Assembly (NCBI GenBank): GCA_903825305.1
Contig: CAIKAC010000013.1
Span: 62,001 to 126,000 of the forward strand
Length of the DNA stretch: 64,000 bases
Direction of reading: 5' to 3'
DNA from: an uncultured Actinomycetes bacterium
GTDB lineage: Bacteria; Actinomycetota; Acidimicrobiia; Acidimicrobiales; RAAP-2
In this document: piece after piece, positions 8,942 through 23,766 of the stretch
How the letters are laid out: each line of letters begins with the position of its first letter
How positions within the stretch are numbered: the first letter of the stretch is position 1
Position numbers and translations under genes: made by a program
The notes under the pieces: model-generated
Databases searched by the model: none
What the model saw: only the letters and a program-made list of their open reading frames with translations
Told to the model about the DNA's origin: nothing

Positions 8942-10252
8942 ATGGCGTCTCCAGAAACCCCCACCTTTGCCGACCTCGGTCTGGCCCATGACCTCATTGA
9001 GGTTCTCAAAACCAAGTCCATTACCCACCCCTTGCCCATTCAGGCAGCAACTATTCCTGATGCACTCAAAGGCCGTGACGTCTCGGGTAAGGCCCCGACG
9101 GGATCAGGCAAAACTTTGGCGTTCTCTTTGCCCCTGGTTTCACACATCAAGAAGTCAAAGCCAAAGCGCCCCACGGGTCTGGTGTTAGCCCCTACCCGCG
9201 AATTGGCCAACCAGATCGCTAAAGACCTCATTCCCTTGGCTAAGACCAAGGGACTCTTTGTGCACGCCTTTTATGGAGGCGCAGGATACGGTCCTCAGAT
9301 CAAGGCTTTGGAGCGACGCGTTGACATTGCCGTGGCGTGCCCTGGACGACTCGAAGACTTGCTTCAGAGTCATTACCTCACCTTGGAAGATGTGAACTTC
9401 GTTGTTATCGACGAAGCAGACCGCATGGCTGACATGGGATTCTTGCCTTCGGTTAAGCGCTTGTTGAACCAAACCAACAAGAAGCGTCAAACCGTGCTGT
9501 TCTCCGCCACTCTCGACGGTGCCGTTGATGCACTGGTTCGCGACTACCAAAGCGACCCTGTGCTCCACGAATTCATGCCGGACGAAGATGAATCCGGCAC
9601 CATGACCCACAAATTTGTGTATTTGACGCCGGATGCTCGCGTGGAGCGCACCGCTGAAGCCATTGACGAACACGGTTCGACCGTAGTCTTCGTACGTACC
9701 CGCCATGGTGCTGATCGTTTAGCTAAGCAACTGAGCCACCACGGCATCAAAGCTGCCGCCATCCACGGAGACCGCAGTCAAGCGCAGCGCGAACGTGCGT
9801 TGAAGTCATTCACGAAGGGTGAAGTGCAAGCCCTTATCGCTACTGACGTCGTTGCTCGCGGTATCCACGTCGACGACGTTGCCTGTGTGGTGCACTACGA
9901 CTTGCCCCAAGACTCCAAGGACTACGTCCACCGTTCAGGCCGTACCGCTCGTGCCGGCGCTGACGGAGAAGTCGTTGCCCTCGTGATTCCAGAATCAAAC
10001 CGACTCGGTGCGATGATCATCAACCAGTTGCAACTCACACCTGAGATTGAGGGTACGCAGCCAGAAATTCGCCCTCGTCCACAAAAGCCCCGTTCGGGTG
10101 GCGGTCACCGTGGTGGTGGCCACTCACACAGCGGTGGCGGCCAAGGTCGTCCTGGTGGTCGCGCCAAGGGTGGACGCCCGGGGGCGCGTGGCGGCAAGCC
10201 CGGTGGTGGCGGACCTTCAGCTCGACGCAAGGGTCCTCGCAAAGCTTCTTAA
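8942..10252 (+). CDS. DEAD-box RNA helicase
   Basis: A 436-residue ATP-dependent RNA helicase. Q motif FADLGLAHDLIEVLK, motif I APTGSGKT, motif Ia PTRELANQI, motif II VVIDEADRMADMGF, motif III SAT, and HRSGRTARAG near the end of the core are all visible. Residues from about 375 to the end form a basic Gly/Arg/His-rich tail typical of RNA-binding extensions in RhlE/CsdA-like helicases. The frame extends back to a TTG at 8888, but the ATG at 8942 fits the family best. It probably acts in ribosome assembly or mRNA decay. The gene ends four bases into the convergent MpaB-like gene. Confidence 0.92.
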   Translation: MASPETPTFADLGLAHDLIEVLKTKSITHPLPIQAATIPDALKGRDVSGKAPTGSGKTLAFSLPLVSHIKKSKPKRPTGLVLAPTRELANQIAKDLIPLAKTKGLFVHAFYGGAGYGPQIKALERRVDIAVACPGRLEDLLQSHYLTLEDVNFVVIDEADRMADMGFLPSVKRLLNQTNKKRQTVLFSATLDGAVDALVRDYQSDPVLHEFMPDEDESGTMTHKFVYLTPDARVERTAEAIDEHGSTVVFVRTRHGADRLAKQLSHHGIKAAAIHGDRSQAQRERALKSFTKGEVQALIATDVVARGIHVDDVACVVHYDLPQDSKDYVHRSGRTARAGADGEVVALVIPESNRLGAMIINQLQLTPEIEGTQPEIRPRPQKPRSGGGHRGGGHSHSGGGQGRPGGRAKGGRPGARGGKPGGGGPSARRKGPRKAS

Positions 10253-12085: not shown

Positions 12086-12544
12086 CTAGGCGTCGGCAAT
12101 TCCTGAGCGCGCCAGTGCCGCGTGAATGTGGAATGCCGCACGCAACGGACCCTCCAAAGTGGTGAGGAGATCTTCGTGGGGGGCCGGAGTCTGGGCGCTG
12201 ATGGCCACGTTGGTTGCTTCCGCCAAGGTTGCGTAGAACCAGTATTTATTCTGAAAATTGCAAAAGGATTCAAAGCAATCGCGAAGTTGAAAAAAGAGCC
12301 AACTGACCTGAGCGGGGTATTCCGTGATGACCTCAAGGTAGTCAGAAAATGGGCCACCGGCATCGGGCCGCGTGACCGGTGTAATTAAGACATCAGCTCC
12401 CTGAAAATATTCAGTTTTGCCAATTGCTCCGGTGGCAATCGACTCTGCGATGGTTTCGAGTCCACGACGAATGCCAACGAGGTCAACGGGGGCGTCCATG
12501 TCGGAGAAGATCTCATCTTCGGCATCAAAATATTCGTTTGTCAT
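12086..12544 (-). CDS. Hypothetical protein, acidic N-terminus
   Basis: A 152-residue protein I do not recognise. The first 25 residues are strongly acidic (FDAEDEIFSDMDAPVD); the rest looks helical and contains an aromatic stretch SWLFFQLRDCFESFCNFQNKYWF. No signal peptide or membrane helix is evident. The ATG at 12544 has a GGGAG site, so the longer frame to 12613 is not needed. It is the last minus-strand gene before the glycan locus and may not belong to it. Confidence 0.65.
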   Translation of the reverse strand: MTNEYFDAEDEIFSDMDAPVDLVGIRRGLETIAESIATGAIGKTEYFQGADVLITPVTRPDAGGPFSDYLEVITEYPAQVSWLFFQLRDCFESFCNFQNKYWFYATLAEATNVAISAQTPAPHEDLLTTLEGPLRAAFHIHAALARSGIADA

Positions 12545-12672
12545 AGGGCTCCCTTCGTTGGCGTGCTTCCAGTATGAGGGGAGGGTGTGACAGCGGCCCA
12601 TAAGCACCGCCAATCACCGAAATTCAAGTTTGGCAAGCCGCGAACAGATTGATCGTCTTTGTGCGCGAGTCA

Positions 12673-12684: not shown

Positions 12685-14319
12685 ATGGCTCCCTTCATTG
12701 GCCGAAAGAGCCAGGCTTCAACCAATCTGTTCGCGCTGAGTGATCGTGACGAACTTGCCATCACGATGGCTCTGGGATCGCCGAAGGATGCGCTGGATGC
12801 ATTTCGTCGCTGGGGCCGAGGCGTGGTCTTCGAAGATTTGCCGACCCCGACCCACCGCCTACTTCCACTCGCGGCCCAAAAACTCGAACACTTGGAATCG
12901 CTTGCTGGCGACGAATTACTTGGAAAATTCACAAAAGCAAGTCGCATCTATTGGCTGAAGAGTCAAATGACGGCCCGGGCGGCTGGCCAAGTTGTTGCCA
13001 TGCTGCTGGAGCAAGGAATACCAGCAATGCTCGTGAAGGGGTCAGCTGTCGTATGGCATCTCGGCGGCAATGTTCGATCCCGGCCCATGGACGATATCGA
13101 CCTTCTGGTGAGACCAGATCAGGTCAGAGAAGCTTTGGATGTGTTTCATCGAGCCGGGTTTGTTGAAGATACGGGCGCGCTCAATGAACGTGACCTTGGC
13201 TTGCTTATCAGTCAGCGACATGCCATTGGTCTGCACAATGCGGAAGGCATCCAACTTGACCTGCATTGGCATCCGATCTCATGTTCAAGAAACGCTCGAA
13301 CCGCTGAGCATTTTTGGGAGGGAGCACAGCAAGGTTCGGTGGCTGGATCTCCCTGCCTTGTGGCCTCGAGGGCTGACTGCGTTGTTCATGCCATTGCTCA
13401 CGCCTATGGAAACCGTCCCTTCATGGAAGCTCGGTGGTTGCCTGACGTGTACCTTCTTGCGTCTGACCCCCACGTGCCGGTGGATTGGGAGCGAGTCGTA
13501 GCGACTGCTCATCTCACGCGTTGCGCGGTGCCCGTCTCGCAGGCGCTCGACGTAGCAGCGAGACATACTGATCTCTCGGTGCCTAACCTCGTCTTCGGCC
13601 GCCTAGGACGAGGAACCTGGGTGGAGCGCACCGTGACCAAGCCTCGCCTTGCCCAGTATGGGGCGATGCGGCCGGCAACTCAGCTAGAGAGTTTGGTGGA
13701 CGCCTATAACGAATATCTCTCTGGCGATGTTTCGCAATCTGGGGCGATAAGAAACCTCATCGGTTTTCTGAGCACGTATTGGTCGGTTACCCCTAGATCG
13801 GTGGTGGGCCATGCCGCCTTTGTGGCGTTAGGCAGACCGCAGCGTCTTCGGCGCTCTAGGACTCGCTCGACGACATACGCGGCACATATGCCTTGTTTGC
13901 GACCGGGAGAACAAACTTGGTTCACCCTCGGGTCTGAAGGTGTTACAGCTCTGGTTCGGGGTTGGTCCAACCCGGAGGCTCATGGAACCTGGTCAACGGG
14001 TGCTGAATCCCAGGTTCGAATTGGCATAGAGGATGCGAAGATCCTTGCAATCACCTTCACGCCGTTTCTGGCTCCGGGGCACCCTCGAATCGAACTCGAA
14101 GTGGTGATTGACAATCAACTGTGCCAAAGATTTGTCTTTACTGGCACGATGTGGTTGACGCAACAAATTCGAATGGAACTTCCCTCCGACCCTCTCAGCG
14201 GGAAGCGTGATGCTGATATTCGTTTCATTGTGCGACGACCCATGAGTCCCGGTGAGGCCTGCCTTGAAGCAGGTACGAGACCACTTGGTATTTCTCTTGC
14301 GAGGATGGAAGTTTACTGA
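12685..14319 (+). CDS. Nucleotidyltransferase-5 family protein with C-terminal beta-sandwich-like domain
   Basis: A 544-residue protein. Residues 110-145 hold the NTP_transf_5 signature: LVKGSAVVWHLGG followed by RPMDDIDLLV with the metal-binding Asp pair; LDLHWHP (about 200) is also typical. Genes of this family usually sit beside HprK-like kinase and PqqD genes, as here. Residues of about 400-544 look like a separate all-beta domain: it opens with VRGWSNPEAHGTWSTG and closes with GTRPLGISLARMEVY, a pattern I associate with the C-terminal domain of some polysaccharide glycosyltransferases. This fusion is unusual for the family as I know it. What it adenylylates or otherwise modifies is unknown. 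It is convergent with, and overlaps by seven bases, the GT2 gene at 14313. Confidence 0.82.
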   Translation: MAPFIGRKSQASTNLFALSDRDELAITMALGSPKDALDAFRRWGRGVVFEDLPTPTHRLLPLAAQKLEHLESLAGDELLGKFTKASRIYWLKSQMTARAAGQVVAMLLEQGIPAMLVKGSAVVWHLGGNVRSRPMDDIDLLVRPDQVREALDVFHRAGFVEDTGALNERDLGLLISQRHAIGLHNAEGIQLDLHWHPISCSRNARTAEHFWEGAQQGSVAGSPCLVASRADCVVHAIAHAYGNRPFMEARWLPDVYLLASDPHVPVDWERVVATAHLTRCAVPVSQALDVAARHTDLSVPNLVFGRLGRGTWVERTVTKPRLAQYGAMRPATQLESLVDAYNEYLSGDVSQSGAIRNLIGFLSTYWSVTPRSVVGHAAFVALGRPQRLRRSRTRSTTYAAHMPCLRPGEQTWFTLGSEGVTALVRGWSNPEAHGTWSTGAESQVRIGIEDAKILAITFTPFLAPGHPRIELEVVIDNQLCQRFVFTGTMWLTQQIRMELPSDPLSGKRDADIRFIVRRPMSPGEACLEAGTRPLGISLARMEVY

Positions 14320-15002
14320 CCTTGATTCTTGGCTCGCATGGCGAGAACCGAGTCTCGCGCCAGAGCAAGATATGTCCGTTTCAAGCGCTCGGAGTCTCGC
14401 GTCCAATTGGCATCATGGACCCGACGCTCCAGGGTGACTTCCTCGATGGTCGCAACCGTCAAGCCAGCTCGTTGACATCTCAGAAACCACTCCATGAACT
14501 CGGTTCCCGCGAGCTCAGGTCGAGTGGTTTGTCCGCCACCTTCGAGATAGAGGGCTCGTCGGGTGGTGAGATTGCCAGCGACGGCTCCGGGTTCAGGCTG
14601 TGAAAATGCTTCAAAATTCCCTGATTCGTTGCGATTTACTTCGAAGCGAACCATCGAACCAGTGACGCCAACAATGTCCGGCTGGGTGCGAAGGAGCGAT
14701 TCATGGAGGTCAAGCCGCTCGGGCGTCATCCGGTCGTCGGCGTCAAGAAAGGAGATGAGTTCTCCCTTGGCTCGTGCTGCTCCTAAATTCCTCGCGTGTG
14801 AGACCCCCGAAGGCGGTTGCTGCAAGACCACAACGTCGCGTGATCGAGCAAGCTCGGCGCTGTTGTCGCTGGAACCATCATCAACAACGATGACTTCAGC
14901 CGCGGGATAATTCTGACGAAGGCTGCTCTCGATGGCCTCAAGAATGAAGGCTGCTCCATCTCTCACGGGAATAATGACGCTTACGCTGAGTCGTTGTGTC
15001 AT
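14313..15002 (-). CDS. GT2-family glycosyltransferase
   Basis: A 229-residue GT-A fold enzyme. The N-terminal VSVIIPVRDGAAFILEAI, EVIVVDDGSSDNS and the DxD-bearing ISFLDADDRMTP segments define GT2. There is no membrane helix, so it is cytoplasmic. The C-terminal part (RRVHDANWTRDSERLKRTYL) resembles small GT2 proteins found beside HprK-like/PqqD genes (recollection, not searched). It is the last gene of the minus-strand operon PqqD-kinase-GT2-GT2 and overlaps the preceding GT2 by four bases, implying translational coupling. Donor and acceptor are unknown. Confidence 0.88.
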   Translation of the reverse strand: MTQRLSVSVIIPVRDGAAFILEAIESSLRQNYPAAEVIVVDDGSSDNSAELARSRDVVVLQQPPSGVSHARNLGAARAKGELISFLDADDRMTPERLDLHESLLRTQPDIVGVTGSMVRFEVNRNESGNFEAFSQPEPGAVAGNLTTRRALYLEGGGQTTRPELAGTEFMEWFLRCQRAGLTVATIEEVTLERRVHDANWTRDSERLKRTYLALARDSVLAMRAKNQGQ

Positions 15003-15712
15003 GGCGCTCCAGTTTCACTGATACCGGTGTTGATCCGCGAGAGACGAGCGCGAACCGCGGCCAGCATTCCTTGGGACTTCGCGCTCGGGATTGAATTGGT
15101 AAGCGAGTCTTGGTGCTGGCGATAACTAAACACCAACACATCGATGGAAGTCACTTCATAGCCGGACTCGACGAGGCGAACGAGTAAGTCCACATCTTCA
15201 CCAAAGCGCAAGTCTTCATTGAATCCGCCGACAGAGCGAAAAGCCTCAGTGGTCAGGTATAGCAAGTTGGTAGACGGACAATGCGTGGGTTGCGAATACT
15301 TAGGCGGGTGAGATCCGTGCTCGAGGTATCTCATGGATCCGACAATGACGTCTCCAGAGATCCCGATGAGATTGAGGCGTGGGTCTGGGCCTTGAATTTC
15401 ACAAATGTCATCAGCATCAAAAAACCAGATCAGGGGAGTGCAGACCTTGCTCGCCCCAAGGTTCCTGGCGGCTGAAGGACCTATTGGTTGGTCACTCTTA
15501 GCACGAAAGCAACGAAGTGCCACCTTGCACTCTTTGGCCGTCGCCATGGCAATCGATGGTGACTGATCGGTGCAGGCATCATCAACCAAGATGATTTCTT
15601 TTAATCCAGACACCTGGGACAGACTCTTGATTGCTTCTGCGATAAAGGGTGCGCCGTTGTGAACCGCCATGACCACGGTCACTGGCTGATCTTGTTCTCG
15701 GTACTTAGTCAT
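14999..15712 (-). CDS. GT2-family glycosyltransferase
   Basis: A 237-residue GT2 enzyme with VTVVMAVHNGAPFIAEAI, IILVDDACTDQSPS and the metal site LIWFFDADDICE. It shares long stretches with the GT2 at 17258 (WFFDADDICE, GGF-E, FGEDVDLL, FSYRQHQ-S-TNS), so the two are paralogues within the locus. Its start overlaps the kinase stop in an ATGA junction and its stop overlaps the next GT2 start, so all are probably translated from one mRNA. No membrane segment is seen. Confidence 0.88.
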   Translation of the reverse strand: MTKYREQDQPVTVVMAVHNGAPFIAEAIKSLSQVSGLKEIILVDDACTDQSPSIAMATAKECKVALRCFRAKSDQPIGPSAARNLGASKVCTPLIWFFDADDICEIQGPDPRLNLIGISGDVIVGSMRYLEHGSHPPKYSQPTHCPSTNLLYLTTEAFRSVGGFNEDLRFGEDVDLLVRLVESGYEVTSIDVLVFSYRQHQDSLTNSIPSAKSQGMLAAVRARLSRINTGISETGAP

Positions 15713-16740
15713 GACAATTCATCAAGTAAGGCGCCGAGTTGATTCGGCGCTTGCGTTCGGTCGGGGCCAAAGGTGATGGCATAGGAGGGGAGGGAACGCA
15801 GCGTCTCGCTGATTTGATGCATGGCCAACGCCTTAACCGTCCGCAATTGAAAGACGGTGCTTGGCATGAGCGCCACCGCGGCTGAAAGCCGAGAAATGTT
15901 CCGCGGACCTTGGGGTTCAGATCCGAGTTGAGGAAGGACCACGCCAACTAGTTCTAGCGAGTCGACCACTTGATTTCCATAATTTTGAGTGAAGTCGAAG
16001 ATCGATTTATCATCGTCCCCTCTCACGGCAACAATCTCCTGGTGGAGCTCGGGAAAATATTCCAACGAGTTGGGAAGCAGCTTGCCGACACCAAATAGAT
16101 TGATGGCCCTCGGTGGGTGAGAGCCGCCGAGGAGCGAATAATCGTCAGAGACGTATTCCCATCCAGCTGCGAGACACGCGATCGCCGATGTTGACTTTCC
16201 GGTTCCTCCGGGACCCACGATCAGAAGACCTTTCCCATTTCGTCCAACCGCGGCTGCATGGACCAGCGCCACACCATGGTCTGCGTTCAGCCAATGGAAG
16301 AGATGGATGAGGGGTGCCGACTGCTCCCAATAGGGCAGGCGGTTGAGCTCTTCAATCCAATAGATTCCACGCTGTCTTTGACTGTCCCACAACATATATG
16401 TGACGGCTTCAGGTGCATACATCGCCGTGATGTGTTCTTCGTGCTGCCCGGCGTCTGGAGCGACTTTGCCGGGATCGAGCAGGCGCAACTCGGTTGGAGC
16501 GTGGTGGCCCCTCGGTAACGGTCCACTCCAAACCCGAATCTGAGCGCTCGCGTGGTTGCCGCTTACCCACCTTCGCCTTAGTGGGCTCAACACGATCCGA
16601 GACAATTCTTGACCTCGAATGGTCAAGCTGACGGAGAGTTCACCAATGCATAAATCTTGCTGGACCGTGACCTCATCATCGACATAGGCATCGAAGGCCG
16701 CCCACAGCTGTTCGAATTGTTGCCGGCGAAAAGAAGTCAT
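15709..16740 (-). CDS. HprK-related serine kinase-like protein
   Basis: A 343-residue protein with a C-terminal HPr-kinase-like P-loop domain: HAAAVGRNGKGLLIVG leading to GPGGTGKST (176-184), then WEYVSDDYSLL (194-204). The N-terminal 150 residues are family-specific. Relatives occur with PqqD-domain proteins and nucleotidyltransferase-5 proteins in capsule, exopolysaccharide and lasso-peptide loci; in the lasso peptide paeninodin a related kinase phosphorylates the precursor's C-terminus. Here the substrate may be the PqqD protein's tail or a glycan carrier (inference). No HPr or PTS gene is nearby, so a classical HprK role is unlikely. Confidence 0.82.
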   Translation of the reverse strand: MTSFRRQQFEQLWAAFDAYVDDEVTVQQDLCIGELSVSLTIRGQELSRIVLSPLRRRWVSGNHASAQIRVWSGPLPRGHHAPTELRLLDPGKVAPDAGQHEEHITAMYAPEAVTYMLWDSQRQRGIYWIEELNRLPYWEQSAPLIHLFHWLNADHGVALVHAAAVGRNGKGLLIVGPGGTGKSTSAIACLAAGWEYVSDDYSLLGGSHPPRAINLFGVGKLLPNSLEYFPELHQEIVAVRGDDDKSIFDFTQNYGNQVVDSLELVGVVLPQLGSEPQGPRNISRLSAAVALMPSTVFQLRTVKALAMHQISETLRSLPSYAITFGPDRTQAPNQLGALLDELS

Positions 16741-16765
16741 AGTGGGCTGGTTCGCGATGGCCGCA

Positions 16766-17152
16766 CTACTCTTCGTTACGAATAGTCAGACCGTCTGCGT
16801 CGTAGTCAATGTCGTGGATGGGGTCTGCGAGCAACATGTCTGCCATGTCCGTAAATTTGGTAACCCCAAGTGGCCCAGGTCCCGGTTCGGCCCATTTGCC
16901 GGCGGAACTTGCTTCCTCCGACATTGCAAGGAGCTCTTCGTTCGCCAACCAGGTAAGAAATTCTGAGGGATCACCATCAGAAATAAGATCATCAATGGGC
17001 GTCTCAGACAGCAGTTGTGTCCAGAGCGCAGTGGCTTCAGCAGAAAATGAGTAGTACGCCCCCGTCTTCATTTGAATCACCACGGCCTCGCCATCAAAGA
17101 TCTCCGAGATGACGTCGAGGGGATTGAGGCTGTAGCCCGGTTGGTTCGGCAT
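16766..17152 (-). CDS. PqqD-domain protein with DPIHDID tail
   Basis: A 128-residue acidic protein. Residues of about 5-78 form a PqqD/RRE-like winged-helix domain (YSLNPLDVISEIFDGEAVV, GAYYSFSAEATALWTQL), a fold that binds leader peptides of modified peptides. Residues 80-128 are an extra tail with a Gly/Pro linker and the motif TDMADMLLADPIHDID (101-116). The tail could be a substrate segment for the adjacent kinase or a docking peptide (inference). The ATG is preceded by AAAGGAG. It is the first gene of the operon with the kinase and two GT2s, 25 bases before the kinase. No separate precursor peptide gene is visible next to it. Confidence 0.82.
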   Translation of the reverse strand: MPNQPGYSLNPLDVISEIFDGEAVVIQMKTGAYYSFSAEATALWTQLLSETPIDDLISDGDPSEFLTWLANEELLAMSEEASSAGKWAEPGPGPLGVTKFTDMADMLLADPIHDIDYDADGLTIRNEE

Positions 17153-17257
17153 CGTTACTGTGCTCCTTTACGCCTTCACGCTAGTTCAGGGTCGCAAACG
17201 CTTCGCGTCTCTTGGTCGTCTCGTGACTTTCGGTGTGATCGCAACAGATGTGACGTC

Positions 17258-18199
17258 TTATTCCTTGGACGCGCGACCTTGATGCTGTTGAGCTCGAAGG
17301 ATCATTGCTCGGGTGGTTGCTAGAAGTCCTAGTGCTCGCGATTGATCCACTGAATTAGTTTTGGAGCGAGCGTGCTGTCGATAGGAGAAAATCAGGTCAT
17401 CAATCCAGCGGACACGAAATCCCTGCTCTTTGATGCGAATGAGCAGGTCTAGATCTTCTCCAAAATCTTTCATCGACTCGGTGAATCCACCAACTGCCTC
17501 GAAGGTGGCGCGGTCGATAAAAATCACCGATGTGATCGGCATGTGCGTCGGTTTGCCAAATCGTCGAGGAACAGAACCATCTTCAAAGATGCGGACTTTT
17601 CCCGCCACTACGTTGAACCCCTCATCGATGAGTCGAATTCTGGGATCATGTGTTTTTACTTCACAGATGTCGTCAGCATCGAAAAACCACAAAATGTCAC
17701 CCGTGGCCGCTTTGGCGCCAATATTGCGAGCTCGCGCAGCGCCACAAGGTTCAGACCCCTCTGCGTGGATGAGATGAACCGGAACGTCTGCTTGAGAAGC
17801 GAATTGCTCAACTATGTCAGCGGTGGAATCACTTGAATGATCGTTGATAACAATGATTTCGCGCAGGTGATCAAGTAAGCCAAAGCTTTCCAAGGTCTCC
17901 TGGATATGCATCTCAGCATCTTTCGCAGCGATGACAATGGAAACTCGTTGAGTTGGCACCGCAACATTGTAGAGATCTCGGTTCTCCCTAGAGGTAATTG
18001 GGTGTTGGCCGAGGTCGTTTGTCGCACGGCGCCATTGGCCCGTTCCAAAGTAAGGCAACTTGCTAGCATCAAGCGAGGAGAAGCCATCGGCTGCTATTTC
18101 GGGCCTTGAAACGACAAAGCGAGGGTTGGCGGACAGTGACGAGTGGCAATCATCGTTGCGCAATCGCAACGATTGCAGCACGCAACTATTTGGCGTCAC
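17258..18199 (-). CDS. GT2-family glycosyltransferase
   Basis: A GT2 enzyme whose fold begins near VSIVIAAKDAEMHIQETL and continues with IIVINDHSSDSTAD and ILWFFDADDICE. The frame is open to a start at 18199, but the first 80 residues are not GT-like and overlap the divergent gene at 18136. A GTG at 17959, directly before the fold, is the more likely start, giving about 233 residues. It is paralogous to the GT2 at 14999 and lies 105 bases upstream of the PqqD gene on the same strand, so it may head the same transcript. Confidence 0.85.
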   Translation of the reverse strand: MTPNSCVLQSLRLRNDDCHSSLSANPRFVVSRPEIAADGFSSLDASKLPYFGTGQWRRATNDLGQHPITSRENRDLYNVAVPTQRVSIVIAAKDAEMHIQETLESFGLLDHLREIIVINDHSSDSTADIVEQFASQADVPVHLIHAEGSEPCGAARARNIGAKAATGDILWFFDADDICEVKTHDPRIRLIDEGFNVVAGKVRIFEDGSVPRRFGKPTHMPITSVIFIDRATFEAVGGFTESMKDFGEDLDLLIRIKEQGFRVRWIDDLIFSYRQHARSKTNSVDQSRALGLLATTRAMILRAQQHQGRASKE

Positions 18200-20508
18200 T
18201 GGTCTTGTTGGGCGAGTCGGTGATGGCCGTTGATCCTGGAGCCGACTTCTACATTCTCATTATCGATGCCTTTGATTCAGATCTTGAAGATCTTCGTATG
18301 AGATATCCCACGTTTCGCTGGATTGGCGTAGACAACATCGGCGTTGAACCATCGCAATTGACCCGTATGGCGTTCTACTACGACGTCACGGAATTCGCGA
18401 CCTCCTTGAAGCCTTGGTTGCTGAGTTCCTTATTGGAAATTTTCGAGATTGCGATCTACCTAGATCCTGACATTGAGGTATTCGATGACTTGAGTTCCAT
18501 CGAGGATCTTGCACGTCAGAACGAAGTTGTTCTCACGCCACACGTGCTGCGTCCTGTTCCACGAGATGGGCTACAGGTGGCGGAGGAAAGTTTCTTGCTT
18601 TCGGGTCACTTCAACCTTGGGTTCATTGCAGTGTCGAAAGCTGCCAGCAATTTCTTGGAATATTGGAAGGAACGCCTGGGGCGCTACTCATTGCATCGCG
18701 TCAGCGAGGGCTACTTCACGGATCAGCGATGGGTTGATGCTGTTCCAGCGCTGTTCGATCACGTCGTCGTGAAGGATCCTGGTTGGAACGTTGCCTATTG
18801 GAACCTTCATGAGCGCCGCATTGCCGATACCGGAGAAGCTGGGCCAACACAACGTGGCTCTTTCTTGGTTAATGGATCGCCATTGCGGTTCTTTCACTTC
18901 AGCGGCCACCGCGCCGAACAGCCACTGACTGCGTCCGTTCACAGCCCCAAATTGCGAGTTGACATCACGAAAGATCCTGCGTTAGTGAGAATATTCACTG
19001 AGCGGGCCCAACGCATCTTGTCGTTCGACCAAGAGGCTGAACCGTATCGGTGGGGGTACTTTCTCGATGGTCGTCCTATTCCACAGGTCCTCCGCACGGC
19101 CTATTGGCATGCCGTTGACGACGCCATCCGCACCGGAGATCCGCTGCCGCCCTCTCCCTTTGATGCGGACGCCGGAGCTGCCTTTGATGAATGGTTGAGC
19201 GAGCGGATTGAATTCGATCTTCCGCGCATCGCCTTGTTATGGGTTCAGTTCAAGCCCGATTTCGTGGCGAGCTTTGGCGAACTTAATTTCGATAATGTTC
19301 GCTGGCTGCCTCATTCATTACTCAACAGTCCCGATTTCGTTGCATCAGCGCGCCGGGGTGACCTTGAGGTGCTTGAGTCCATGCTTCCTCGCAATATCCG
19401 AAATCAGCCGGGCATCAATCTCATCGGATATCTGCTGGGGGAGTTTGGCCTTGGTGTTCATGCGCGTGGCATCGCTTCAAGCGTGTTGGCTGCTGGACTT
19501 CCATTGAGTCTGTCTCCGCTCACCGCTCCGGGACATGTGCACCAGGCCCAATCGCTTCCAGGAGTTCAATCGTTGGCCTATGACGTCAATGTGGTCTGTG
19601 TCAATGCAGACGCACTTCCCCAGTTGGCGCAAGATGCTCTTTGGCAACGCATAAAACACCAACCCATTGTGGGGGTGTGGAACTGGGAACTTCCTCAGAT
19701 GGCGCCAGAGATGGTGGCGTGTTCTGAGTTGCTTGATGAGATTTGGTGTGGCTCTGAATTCATTGCCGAGTCAATTCGCTCGTCTGGTGCGCATTGTGAG
19801 GTCTATGTCCATCCCCTGTGTATTGAAGCCCCAGCACCCACCAAATTGCTCCGAGCAGACCTGGGACTGTGCGATGACGGATTTACCTTTGGATTTTCTT
19901 TCGACTATCGATCGGTAGAGCGACGAAAAAATCCTTTCGGGCTCATCCGGGCTTATCGAGAGGCATTCCAAGGAGACGAGGGCGTGCAACTCGTCATCAA
20001 GACGATCAACGCAACATCCGAAGATCTCTACAAGTTGGGTGAGGCAGTTGGAGGGAGAAGTGACATCCGGGTCATAGCGCGCCATTGGAGCGATGCTCAG
20101 ATGAGGGCGTTTTATCAACTCATTGATTGCTACGTCTCGCTTCATCGAAGTGAAGGCATCGGCTTGACCATGGCAGCAGCAATGGCATCGGGAACCCCCG
20201 TCATTGCAACGGGTTGGTCTGGAAACATGAGCTTTATGGACGAATCGAGTGCCGCGCTCGTTCCCGTCACCATGACCGAGGTTGGCGTTGGGTTCGAACC
20301 CTATATGCCAGATGCCCTCTGGGCAGAACCAGACGCGTCCGCCGCGATAGAAGCGATGCACTCGCTGGCCAAAAATCCAACGTTTGCACTGGCTCTTGGA
20401 GGGCGAGGGAGAGAACATTTACTCTCAATCGCGTCACCCCAAGTCGCAGGAGCGTGGATGTCAACACGTTACAAAGCAATTTCCAAAGGAAGCGGTCGTC
20501 GACAGTGA
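18136..20508 (+). CDS. Large two-domain glycosyltransferase
   Basis: About 790 residues. The N-terminal third resembles sugar transferases of the GT8-like GT-A fold: IATIAARNYLASLVLLGES at the start, an acidic metal-site segment YLDPDIEVFDD (near 108) and SGHFNLGFIAVS. The C-terminal third is a GT-B/GT4 enzyme with VGVWNWELP, FSFDYRSVERRKNP and the nucleotide-sugar motif HRSEGIGLTMAAAMASGTP (near 670). One chain therefore carries two transfer centres. The GTG at 18136 with an upstream GAGGG is preferred over a TTG at 18106. It overlaps the FkbM gene through a GTGA junction. Product unknown; xylose or glucuronate, made by the neighbouring pair, are possible donors. Confidence 0.85.
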   Translation: MTSGNHRCAIATIAARNYLASLVLLGESVMAVDPGADFYILIIDAFDSDLEDLRMRYPTFRWIGVDNIGVEPSQLTRMAFYYDVTEFATSLKPWLLSSLLEIFEIAIYLDPDIEVFDDLSSIEDLARQNEVVLTPHVLRPVPRDGLQVAEESFLLSGHFNLGFIAVSKAASNFLEYWKERLGRYSLHRVSEGYFTDQRWVDAVPALFDHVVVKDPGWNVAYWNLHERRIADTGEAGPTQRGSFLVNGSPLRFFHFSGHRAEQPLTASVHSPKLRVDITKDPALVRIFTERAQRILSFDQEAEPYRWGYFLDGRPIPQVLRTAYWHAVDDAIRTGDPLPPSPFDADAGAAFDEWLSERIEFDLPRIALLWVQFKPDFVASFGELNFDNVRWLPHSLLNSPDFVASARRGDLEVLESMLPRNIRNQPGINLIGYLLGEFGLGVHARGIASSVLAAGLPLSLSPLTAPGHVHQAQSLPGVQSLAYDVNVVCVNADALPQLAQDALWQRIKHQPIVGVWNWELPQMAPEMVACSELLDEIWCGSEFIAESIRSSGAHCEVYVHPLCIEAPAPTKLLRADLGLCDDGFTFGFSFDYRSVERRKNPFGLIRAYREAFQGDEGVQLVIKTINATSEDLYKLGEAVGGRSDIRVIARHWSDAQMRAFYQLIDCYVSLHRSEGIGLTMAAAMASGTPVIATGWSGNMSFMDESSAALVPVTMTEVGVGFEPYMPDALWAEPDASAAIEAMHSLAKNPTFALALGGRGREHLLSIASPQVAGAWMSTRYKAISKGSGRRQ

Positions 20509-21524
20509 CACAGAATATGGATTGGCAAAATCAGAAGGAACAGTTGATCTCCTACGCACAGAATCGCGAAGACATCCTTCTGGCGCGCGCACTGAAGCCC
20601 TGGGAACACTCCGGCTTTTGGATTGACATTGGAGCTGGCCATCCCCGATTTGATTCAGTAACCGCCCTGTTCAGCAATTTCGGGTGGCGTGGCATCAATG
20701 TGGAGCCATTGGATGAGGAATTTGATCTCCTCACCCAAGAACGTTCAAGGGACATCAATATTCACACTGCGGTGGGCTTGCACGAAGGAACGGCCACGCT
20801 GTACGCCGGCCCCCCAGAAAATCGAGGGATGTCGACCTTGGTCGAATCCCAGGGCGAGATGCTCTTGGAGACAGGCTTCACCAAAGTGCACGTGCCGGTG
20901 ATAACTCTCCAGAGCATCGTGGACGAGCATGTGAGTGAAGTGGTCGATTTCTTGAAGGTGGATGTCGAAGGCTTTGAGTACGAAGTTCTCTCCAGTGTGA
21001 ATCTTGCGGCATTGCGACCTCGCATCATTGTGGTGGAAGCAACGCTACCGGGGACCACCATCGACTCTTCTGGACCTTGGGAGTCACTTGTGATTGATGC
21101 GGGATATCAGCTCGTGATGTTTGACGGGCTCAACCGCTATTACTGCCTGGTCGATGGCGATCCAGCCATTCAAAAGAGTCTGTCGATACCCGTGAACGTT
21201 TTGGACAATTTCGTTGAATACCGAACGCAGATTGAGATCGGCGCTGGACTCGCTCGCATTAATCGCGACTATCGCGAAGCCCTAGATGACCTCGCCGAGA
21301 CAAAAAGGCAGCTGCATCGCATGCAACAAGACCTTATTACTTCGCAGCGTAAATGTGCATCGGCCCTGGAATCGCTGGTTCCCTTCGAGCAGAAAATCGA
21401 TGACATTGAGTCTCGACTGGGATATCAGATCTATTCCAACATGGCCCATCGAATTGCCAACCATCCGTGGCTGTTCACATCAATAAAGAAAATCTTGTCG
21501 TGGTCTTCTTCTGGCAGCGATTGA
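20505..21524 (+). CDS. FkbM-family methyltransferase
   Basis: A 339-residue SAM-dependent methyltransferase of the FkbM/Methyltransf_21 type. The SAM-binding motif is FWIDIGAGHPRFDSVTALF (38-56), followed by VEPLDEEFDLL and VDFLKVDVEGFEYEVL (about 145-160). The last 90 residues form a probable coiled coil (DDLAETKRQLHRMQQDL), which is not part of the enzyme domain. The GTG at 20505 overlaps the stop of the glycosyltransferase as GTGA, so translation is coupled; an ATG at 20517 is the alternative. It probably O-methylates a sugar of the glycan made by this locus. Confidence 0.87.
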   Translation: MTQNMDWQNQKEQLISYAQNREDILLARALKPWEHSGFWIDIGAGHPRFDSVTALFSNFGWRGINVEPLDEEFDLLTQERSRDINIHTAVGLHEGTATLYAGPPENRGMSTLVESQGEMLLETGFTKVHVPVITLQSIVDEHVSEVVDFLKVDVEGFEYEVLSSVNLAALRPRIIVVEATLPGTTIDSSGPWESLVIDAGYQLVMFDGLNRYYCLVDGDPAIQKSLSIPVNVLDNFVEYRTQIEIGAGLARINRDYREALDDLAETKRQLHRMQQDLITSQRKCASALESLVPFEQKIDDIESRLGYQIYSNMAHRIANHPWLFTSIKKILSWSSSGSD

Positions 21525-21541
21525 CGAAGAGAACATGGCGA

Positions 21542-22480
21542 TCATTTTGGTTGGTTGAGCAATCGAAACCATTGAATCGTTTCGTCTAATCCTTGACGCA
21601 AATCCATCACTGGCTCCCAAGAAAGGAGCGACCTCGCCCGCCCGATGTCGGGGCATCGCCTGGCTGGATCATCAGTTGGTAGGGCTTCGAACTTGATGGG
21701 ACTGTTTGAACTGCATGCCTCAATGATGATCTGGGCAATCTCCAAGACGCTGCGCTCATCTGGATTTCCTAGATTGATGGGACCCGGCAGATCTGCATCA
21801 GCCAATGCCATGAGGGCGGACACCATGTCTGAAACGAAACACAAACTGCGAGTTTGCTTGCCTGTCCCGTAGATCGTGACATCAGAGCCAGCAAGCGCTT
21901 GGGTGATGAAGTTTGAAACGACGCGACCATCAGCGGTATCGAGTCGGGGGCCGTAGGTATTGAAGATCCTTGCTATGGCCGTGTTGACGCTGTGTTCACG
22001 GGCAAAAGCGGACGTAGATGCTTCTGCAAACCGTTTCGCTTCGTCATAAACGCTGCGGGGACTTGTCGGCTCTACATTTCCTCGGTAGGTCTCGGTTTGA
22101 GGGTGGACGAGGGGGTCCCCATAGACCTCTGACGTGGAGGCCAGCACAAAACGCGCCCTGTTGCTTCGAGCGAGCTCGAGTAATCGAAACGTGCCTTCGG
22201 ATCCGACACGAAGCGTCTCGAGGGGGCGTTGCAGGTAGGCCTTAGGCGATGCCGGGGATGCGAGGTGGTAAATGATGTCGATGGATCCTGTGGGCGGTAG
22301 CGGATCGCAAATATCTACTTCGCTGAAAGAAAACAATGGTGTCTGCAAGGCCGCATCAAGATTGTGCAGTTTGCCCGTAGAGAGGTTGTCAAAGACGGTC
22401 ACAACATCTCCTCGGGCAATGTGTGCATCAACGAGGTGAGAACCGAGAAAACCAGCACCTCCGGCGATCAAAATATTCAC
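21542..22480 (-). CDS. uxs: UDP-glucuronate decarboxylase (UDP-xylose synthase)
   Basis: A 312-residue extended SDR. NAD is bound by GGAGFLGS (7-14); HLASPASPKAY (72-82) and STSEVYGDP are hallmarks of UDP-xylose synthase, and the catalytic pair is in SVYDEAKRFAE (Tyr145, Lys149). The enzyme converts UDP-glucuronate to UDP-xylose in the cytoplasm. It starts with GTG inside the stop codon of the upstream UDP-glucose dehydrogenase gene, so the two make a two-step pathway from UDP-glucose to UDP-xylose. It is convergent with the FkbM gene, 17 bases apart. Confidence 0.92.
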   Translation of the reverse strand: MNILIAGGAGFLGSHLVDAHIARGDVVTVFDNLSTGKLHNLDAALQTPLFSFSEVDICDPLPPTGSIDIIYHLASPASPKAYLQRPLETLRVGSEGTFRLLELARSNRARFVLASTSEVYGDPLVHPQTETYRGNVEPTSPRSVYDEAKRFAEASTSAFAREHSVNTAIARIFNTYGPRLDTADGRVVSNFITQALAGSDVTIYGTGKQTRSLCFVSDMVSALMALADADLPGPINLGNPDERSVLEIAQIIIEACSSNSPIKFEALPTDDPARRCPDIGRARSLLSWEPVMDLRQGLDETIQWFRLLNQPK

Positions 22481-23766
22481 ATGCCCCCCAAGCCTCGGTA
22501 GCGAAAACCACGCGCACGCATCTCATCGGGATCGAGCAGATTCCTCGCGTCGACGATGGTCGGCGAGCGCATTGAGAGAGCCATGGCGGAGTAATCCGCG
22601 GTCACAAATTGAGGCCATTCGGTGAGGATCACAAGTGCATCAGCACCCATGGCTGCCACTTCGGCTGTCGCAACGATGTCAAGATTATGGATGTCGATAT
22701 CAGGTTCACTGGTCATGACAGTGGGGTCATAAGCGCGCACCGTTGCCCCTCTGGCTTGGAGCGCGTGAGCGATGAATACCGCGGGGGAGTCGCGTCGATC
22801 GTTGGTGCCGGCTTTAAAGGTGAGACCCAAGATGCCAATGACCGCATCATGGAGGGGCCCAGTTTCACTGGCCACCAATTCGATGATTCGTTCGATGTGG
22901 TGCGTGTTCGCGTCTACTGCTGCTCGCACGACCTGTAGCGGTTGCTGGAATGTTGCCCCCACGTGAAGCAACGCGCGCGTGTCTTTGGGGAAACAGGAGC
23001 CGCCCCAGCCTGGTCCTGCATCCATCATGCTGTGGCCAATGCGAGGGTCGGCGCCCATTGCTGCTGCGACAGTTGCAAAGTCCGCACCGGCGCTTTCGCA
23101 GAAGAAAGCAAGGTCATTCATGAAACTCACCTTGGTGGCGAGAAAGGCGTTGGAGGCGTATTTTATTGTCTCCGCGCTTTCTGGAGTTGTCATGAAAATG
23201 GGCACATCAGGATGTGTCGTGAGACTGACAACAGCTTCGCCAGCTTCGCGATTCCGAGCGCCGATGACGATTCGATCAGGGTGGTCGAGATCATAAATGG
23301 CATGCCCTTCTCGAAGAAATTCGGGATTCGAGACTACGGAAACATCGTTGCGATCCAGCACCTGCTCCAAGAGGGCCGTTGTTCCTATCGGGGCGGTCGA
23401 TTTCTTGACCAGAATGCAGCCCTGCTTCAAGGCCGGCCCGATTTCTCTCGCGGCATTGATGAGGGGGTTGAGATCGGCTGATCCATCCGGGAGAGGGGGC
23501 GTTTCAACGCAGAGAAATACAAAATCACAACCTGCAATCGCTTTGATGGTGTTGGAAGAGAAGTGAAGCCGATGGGATGCAATTTCTTGATCGAGAAGTT
23601 CCTGAAGTCCAGGCTCATGGATAGGACTCACGCCTTGTTCCAAGCATGCGATGCGTTGCGGATCGCGCTCGGCAACCATGACCCTATGGCCACTTCGGGC
23701 GAGCAGAAGGGCGGTCGGGAGACCCACGTATCCCGCCCCTATGACGCAGATCTGTTTAGCAGCCAT
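22477..23766 (-). CDS. ugd: UDP-glucose 6-dehydrogenase
   Basis: A 429-residue enzyme oxidising UDP-glucose to UDP-glucuronate with two NAD. It has the dinucleotide loop VIGAGYVGLPTALLLA at the N-terminus, SNPEFLREGHA, the central SNAFLATKVSFMNDLA and the catalytic cysteine in GWGGSCFPKD (Cys258). A late LGLTFKAGTNDRRDSPA segment completes the UDP-binding domain. It overlaps the UDP-xylose synthase gene by four bases. A CATAGT hexamer seven bases before the ATG may be a -10 box. It is at the edge of the glycan locus. Confidence 0.93.
   Translation of the reverse strand: MAAKQICVIGAGYVGLPTALLLARSGHRVMVAERDPQRIACLEQGVSPIHEPGLQELLDQEIASHRLHFSSNTIKAIAGCDFVFLCVETPPLPDGSADLNPLINAAREIGPALKQGCILVKKSTAPIGTTALLEQVLDRNDVSVVSNPEFLREGHAIYDLDHPDRIVIGARNREAGEAVVSLTTHPDVPIFMTTPESAETIKYASNAFLATKVSFMNDLAFFCESAGADFATVAAAMGADPRIGHSMMDAGPGWGGSCFPKDTRALLHVGATFQQPLQVVRAAVDANTHHIERIIELVASETGPLHDAVIGILGLTFKAGTNDRRDSPAVFIAHALQARGATVRAYDPTVMTSEPDIDIHNLDIVATAEVAAMGADALVILTEWPQFVTADYSAMALSMRSPTIVDARNLLDPDEMRARGFRYRGLGGM

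Follow-up and report, generated by a model that had tools for sequence, protein, structure and literature searches.

This analysis deals with a locus of an uncultured Actinomycetes bacterium (Acidimicrobiales, RAAP-2; assembly GCA_903825305.1, contig CAIKAC010000013.1) that occupies positions 12,685 to 23,766 of a stretch of 64,000 nucleotides, here called the window. The locus encodes a PqqD-like protein in which a RiPP (ribosomally synthesized and post-translationally modified peptide) recognition element (RRE) is followed by a C-terminal tail. Here, we show that PqqD proteins with this tail stand beside HprK-like kinases, nucleotidyltransferases of the NTP_transf_5 family (NTP5) and glycosyltransferases of family 2 (GT2) in a cassette that is found in at least ten bacterial phyla. 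RREs normally bind the leader peptide of a separately made precursor. There is about an even chance that the locus represents a divergent form of a cassette which is widespread and centred on a fusion of RRE, leader and core, i.e. on a self-presenting scaffold for phosphate and sugar tailoring. In the literature that was searched, no account of the tailed PqqD or of the cassette was found.

The tailed PqqD protein

A profile of five PqqD proteins, run against genome contigs, matched 94 loci of which 80 were kept. Together with the window and four relatives they make up 85 tailed loci, 84 of them independent since L092 and L038 are one locus. After the RRE domain all of these proteins have a tail whose canonical form is FxxPxLxKYTDMQDLLLLDPIHEVDxxGWP, with the core-like segment following the consensus [LA]DP[IV]H[DE][VI]. 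The search pattern took in tail columns 99-108, so that conservation there is partly built in. Outside these columns conservation is equally high: D110 is found in 100%, P111, H113 and G121 in 99%, an aromatic residue at position 92 in 96%, W122 and P123 in 95% and P95 in 92% of the proteins. This exceeds the conservation of the RRE domain, where only G31 and Y33 are invariant. In the window the tail covers approximately residues 92-128 of the 128, with KFTDMADMLLADPIHDID kept at residues 99-116. A search of the tail against sequences of the PDB gave no match, and no DPIH-type motif was found outside PqqD.

The window protein gives no match to PF05402, and its PqqD-like identity comes from its relatives (one of them scores 51 bits) and from its fold. 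The RRE profile matches TbiB1 at 1.8e-18 and the same protein, a lasso B1 crystallised with its leader, is the top Foldseek match of the AlphaFold model. The closest NCBIfam family for canonical tailed members is lasso_PqqD_Bac, and the RRE is of the B1 type that characterizes lasso clusters.

In lasso leaders the motif YxxPxL at positions -17, -14 and -12 was reported to be recognized by B1 (PMC10368454). The first half of the tail contains an aromatic residue, a proline and a leucine with this spacing and in the same register. The 17-residue BsfA leader, scanned without gaps along all 85 proteins, had its best offset at the tail register in 66 of them, and the leader of a plausible precursor from the control locus L136 (see below) did so in 30 of 85; in both cases none of 500 shuffled leaders reached the observed count. 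In this register a lasso core would start at residue 109, which places DPIHEV-GWP at the position of the core peptide. The AlphaFold models (pLDDT, the predicted local distance difference test, of 76 for the window protein and 83 for a canonical member) both show the RRE fold and after it a strand and a helix of the tail at pLDDT of about 80-85, with low confidence for the DPIHEV-GWP stretch. In the canonical model the strand comprises residues 123-125 and the helix 128-134, and DPIHEV-GWP has a pLDDT of about 55. As assigned by DSSP in a single chain, the tail strand must pair with another strand of the same chain, for which beta-3 of the wing would be the candidate. Segments that combine the highest conservation with the lowest order usually act for a partner and not for the fold. 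From the letters of the DNA only, an earlier inspection (the sequence-only reading) had suggested that kinase and PqqD act on glycan assembly or on a built-in peptide; such a peptide does exist in form of the conserved tail, which had been overlooked.

Distribution and composition of the cassette

According to our own reading of the sequence record descriptions, carriers are found in Chloroflexota, Pseudomonadota, Desulfobacterota-type deltaproteobacteria, Bacteroidota, Planctomycetota and Cyanobacteriota, in Nitrospirota, Actinomycetota, Bacillota, Acidobacteriota-type bacteria and Verrucomicrobiota, and in others. The kinase is present in 70 of the 85 tailed loci, NTP5 in 64 and GT2 in 71, the latter with 203 matches in total and usually two to three per cassette. 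Gene sets were counted in those 65 loci for which 6 kb or more of downstream sequence was available. Forty-nine of these 65 contain PqqD, kinase, GT2 and NTP5 together, almost always on a single strand, and in 41 the first labelled gene after PqqD is that of the kinase. GT2 shares the strand of PqqD in 58/65 loci, the kinase in 57/65 and NTP5 in 44/65, while ABC transporters of at least 500 amino acids are nearby in 19/65. Sulfotransferases are recurrent among the tailed loci. Five Chloroflexota loci (L058, L068, L074, L080 and L082) combine the tailed PqqD with an ABC exporter and adenylation-domain proteins, several of them also with sulfotransferases and an SsuA/SsuC-like importer; HprK-like kinase and NTP5 are absent from these five.

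The distance matrices of PqqD, kinase and NTP5 are correlated (rho 0.57, 0.35 and 0.51; reached by 0 of 500 permutations), which fits inheritance as a unit, with a contribution from shared species history. In the kinase tree the tailed loci have a clade of their own (62/62 against 16 control kinases, split support 0.917), and the window kinase falls inside it.

The sequence-only reading had taken the glycan enzymes for an unusual local variant of a known gene trio and the supply of UDP-xylose for a part of the unit. The first view is not supported because GT2 is standard in the cassette (58/65 loci). The second is ruled out by the gene arrangement in the sister species (see below) and by the occurrence of a homologue of UDP-glucose 6-dehydrogenase (UGD) in only 1/85 tailed loci, which put UGD and the UXS-like enzyme outside the cassette. 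FkbM occurs in 7/65 loci. Neither of the outcomes that the sequence-only reading had named as refuting it came about, as the core set is conserved and a search of the genome revealed no lasso system elsewhere.

Absence of lasso machinery and of a separate precursor

In agreement with what was stated from the letters alone, the locus showed no lasso cyclase, leader peptidase or separate precursor gene. A profile search found no PF13471 leader peptidase in the bacterium's own genome and only two partial Asn_synthase matches of 65-75 residues; a lasso system elsewhere in this genome was thus not found. Among the 85 tailed loci none shows an Asn-synthase motif of the SGGxDS type and no B2-type peptidase stands beside any tailed PqqD. 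In contrast, the peptidase occurs in 8 of 14 tail-less PqqD control loci (Fisher p 1.8e-8), which were drawn from kinase matches in the window's own phylum and thus sampled differently from the tailed set. One contig of Oscillatoria PCC 10802 (L093), which has the single peptidase match, provides an internal control: its tail-less PqqD adjoins a peptidase (1-704), whereas the tailed cassette, which starts at 9962 about 9 kb away, has none. The control locus L007 is of lasso type and holds a short PqqD along with peptidase, cyclase, kinase and PF14907.

Conserved short open reading frames near the cassette had also been envisaged, but among 1601 candidates in the 85 tailed loci no recurrent one was detected. 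What came up was only nearly identical DNA shared by related Oscillatoria contigs, along with motif matches due to chance, and these precursor candidates were rejected. A comparable scan does find a plausible precursor in the control L136.

This plausible lasso precursor (L136:11487-11741, + strand) reads AYETPSITELGSVAAMTR followed by GEGVKGDDDTLAWFIKYGTDPTS, has a serine at its end and adjoins genes for PqqD, peptidase, kinase and NTP5. Another tail-less region (L145:5476-12784) carries four PqqD-like open reading frames, two NTP5 genes and one HprK-like kinase gene within about 7.5 kb.

Proposed function and competing explanations

Judged from sequence, the putative function of the cassette is RRE-guided peptide tailoring. 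The kinase of lasso clusters acts on the precursor by phosphorylating it, and BsfB1 speeds up phosphorylation by BsfK (PMC10368454, PMC9266682). PsmN, annotated as nucleotidyltransferase, is needed for the attachment of hexose to the phosphorylated serine, possibly by an indirect route (PMC9266682, PMC10368454). By analogy, we infer the following cis docking, order of steps, acceptor and product. The leader-like segment of the tail would dock on the RRE of the same chain, and the docked RRE would thereby offer the invariant segment [LA]DP[IV]H[DE][VI] to its partners. Next, an acceptor on or beside the scaffold would be phosphorylated by the HprK-like kinase, and to this acceptor NTP5 might add a hexose or nucleotidyl group, as PsmN reportedly does after PsmK in the pseudomycoidin lasso cluster. 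GT2 enzymes, in the window together with the GT4 and FkbM proteins, would lengthen and decorate the glycan, and the ABC exporter present in some other loci could export the product. In the strictest version the protein would be a ribosomally encoded scaffold of a new class: RRE, leader and invariant core lie in one polypeptide, the glycan or sugar-phosphate is built on or templated by DPIH[DE][VI], and the phosphate goes to a residue that is not a usual acceptor, for example the invariant Asp or His; this combination of claims we consider tentative and rather unlikely.

Several observations weigh against a self-presenting scaffold. The core-like stretch has an invariant Asp, an invariant His and a conserved acidic residue and shows no conserved Ser, Thr or Tyr, so that the usual acceptor of kinases of the PadeK/BsfK type is missing; this implies either unusual chemistry or a tail that acts as docking device with the acceptor elsewhere. 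The only conserved hydroxyl of the tail, Thr101, is replaced by Asp in 8% and directly precedes the helix, hence a role as N-cap is the simpler explanation and the tail was rejected as Ser/Thr kinase site. The tail also persists in some Chloroflexota loci that have neither kinase nor GT2 nor NTP5, and hence does not depend on the presence of the kinase. The tail-less kinase and NTP5 loci L130, L133, L040 and L042 lack the peptidase as well. Docking in cis is read from predicted secondary structure only. Moreover, in the window's genus the aromatic-proline anchor and GWP are lost, and neither the BsfA nor the L136 leader aligns best at the tail of the window protein. Being divergent, this member may depend on the helix and the DPIHDI part alone.

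Less probable than the scaffold, and still to be taken seriously, is a tail that works as docking or regulatory segment which fills the groove of the RRE or recruits kinase, GT2 or exporter, with the actual acceptor, which could be a lipid, a small molecule or a peptide whose gene lies elsewhere, being bound in trans. Such a role would account for a core-like part that is near-invariant rather than variable and offers no hydroxyl acceptor, for the variable sequence at the C-terminus beyond GWP and for those tails that are kept where the kinase is absent and an ABC exporter gene follows directly, an arrangement that in Chloroflexota favours a more general scaffold role. On the other hand, no conserved second peptide was detected in the 85 loci, and mere docking poorly explains why a conserved core-like stretch comes after a segment in leader-like register.

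The several GT2 genes per locus, the MsbA/PglK-like ABC transporters of some loci, the sulfotransferases and the UGD gene beside the window locus recall the biosynthesis of surface polysaccharides. A conventional exopolysaccharide locus (Wzx/Wzy type) was rejected because of the missing PF02397 priming sugar-phosphate transferase, which is found nowhere in the own genome and is present in 9 of 14 control genomes. Also the broader idea that the locus makes an ordinary surface polysaccharide or lipid-linked glycan and that kinase and PqqD regulate it is improbable, since the genes identified in the locus include no flippase or polymerase, UGD is not conserved with the cassette and the RRE domain is of the lasso-B1 type. 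The least probable explanation, and by now largely refuted, is a cluster for a lasso peptide or another RiPP, with its precursor, peptidase and cyclase genes at other sites of the genome: RRE, HprK-like kinase and PF14907 do occur in lasso clusters, but the searches for PF13471, for a full Asn_synthase and for the SGGxDS-type motif described above argue against it.

Relation to known systems

The tailed cassette shares with the paeninodin, pseudomycoidin and bsf clusters an RRE of lasso-B1 type, an HprK-like kinase with catalytic tetrad and a predicted nucleotidyltransferase. It differs from them in the lack of a separate precursor, B2 peptidase and cyclase, in the fusion of the leader-like segment to the RRE, in having GT2 enzymes as standard partners and in the absence of a conserved serine from the core-like segment. 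Lasso clusters from Butyrivibrio (PMC7533575) bring together the same enzyme families (nucleotidyltransferase, HPr kinase, GT2) along with EpsH but, unlike the tailed cassette, hold genes for LasA, LasB and LasC. Related families of kinase and PqqD are also known from the NCBIfam HprK-related kinases A/B, from SynChlorMet (ScmC/ScmD) and from tail-less loci with PqqD, kinase and NTP5. The window locus scores far below the equivalog cut-offs of the HprK-related kinase A/B and SynChlorMet families (e.g., 36.4 against 200 bits for TIGR04352, HprK_rel_A).

MftF, the glycosyltransferase of mycofactocin, glycosylates a RiPP-derived product. It is among the best NCBIfam matches of all three GT2 enzymes of the window, with 63-77 bits against a cut-off of 280, which indicates distant GT2 similarity only.

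If the scaffold reading is true, the cassette would represent a natural fusion of RRE, leader and core that is conserved in many phyla and stands beside enzymes that are known to occur with lasso peptides carrying phosphate and sugar. The loosely annotated set of PqqD, HprK and NTP_transf_5 would then become a directly testable pathway whose putative substrate is a defined sequence of 30 residues, and the orphan Pfam family PF14907 would gain a second, lasso-free context for its chemistry. The cassette may thus be a widespread and unstudied bacterial route to sugar-modified molecules.

The locus in the window and in related genomes

Pfam and NCBIfam matches together with the relatives bear out the gene content that had been read from the sequence, namely NTP_transf_5, kinase, PqqD, four glycosyltransferases, FkbM, a UXS-like short-chain dehydrogenase/reductase (SDR) and UGD:

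12685..14319, + strand: NTP_transf_5 nucleotidyltransferase (PF14907, 121 bits against a cut-off of 31, 7e-35)
14313..15002, - strand: GT2 glycosyltransferase c (PF00535, 5e-25; 62% identity to sister species)
14999..15712, - strand: GT2 glycosyltransferase b (PF00535, 4e-15; 51% identity to sister species; 4-base overlap with the end of the kinase gene)
15709..16740, - strand: HprK-like kinase (NCBIfam HprK_rel_A/B, about 1e-9; PF07475, 3e-4, below cut-off)
16766..17152, - strand: PqqD/RRE-like protein of 128 amino acids with conserved C-terminal tail (relatives; AlphaFold fold match to TbiB1)
17258..18199, - strand: GT2 glycosyltransferase a (PF00535, 2e-22, domain from residue 87)
18106..20508, + strand: glycosyltransferase of 800 amino acids (PF00534, 8e-11; GT4 domain at residues ~603-720; 61% identity to sister species)
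20214..21524, + strand: FkbM-family methyltransferase (PF05050, 3e-22, domain from residue 138; 53% identity to sister species)
21542..22480, - strand: UXS-like SDR sugar-nucleotide enzyme (PF01370/PF16363), neighbour outside the conserved cassette
22477..23766, - strand: UGD (TIGR03026, 406 bits), neighbour outside the conserved cassette

From the start of its domain, GT2 a probably begins near 17965. The GT4 protein, whose N-terminal half has no domain assigned, probably starts with GTG at about 18136 and the FkbM methyltransferase at about 20517.

The kinase remains below the Pfam cut-off (PF07475, 20.8 against 33.3 bits). It possesses the His-Lys-Asp-Asp tetrad (H161, K182, D199 and D200), which is at least 93% conserved among 74 homologues. 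In NTP_transf_5, a single copy in the own genome, K118-G119 and the metal-type D137/D139 (DxD) are conserved, followed by a C-terminal extension of about 250 amino acids without assignment. The UXS-like SDR scores far below the NCBIfam equivalog cut-offs, so that the supply of UDP-xylose is itself unproven.

The sister species (G001) contains the set from NTP5 to FkbM in the same order with 51-62% identity, including a PqqD protein that is 61% identical. In that species FkbM is not followed by UGD and the UXS-like gene, and a UGD with 48% identity is encoded on a different contig. The orthologue of GT2 a is split over several frames with intact neighbours (L005:12552-13400) and this enzyme is therefore dispensable. 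Three further genomes of the same order or phylum (G042, G339 and G374) have PqqD, kinase, GT2s and NTP5 in common with the window, whereas GT8/GT4-like, FkbM and UGD genes are not common to them as a set. The long GT4-containing enzyme and the FkbM methyltransferase, both kept in the sister species, are local additions acquired by the window lineage; homologues of the long GT4 protein are found in two Chloroflexota tailed loci.

The GC content of the region from 14 to 22 kb is 0.53-0.54 compared to 0.56-0.59 across most of the window, and within the family the sister species is the only other carrier of the PqqD protein among the genomes sampled, which suggests horizontal acquisition. Carriage on a plasmid and a defence system were also considered and dropped, as PLSDB and PADLOC, respectively, gave no match. 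A small protein that matches neither Pfam nor PADLOC is encoded upstream of NTP5 at 12086-12613 (- strand), and in the sister species the corresponding place (L005:7547-8002) holds a protein that resembles it in size and in the start of its sequence.

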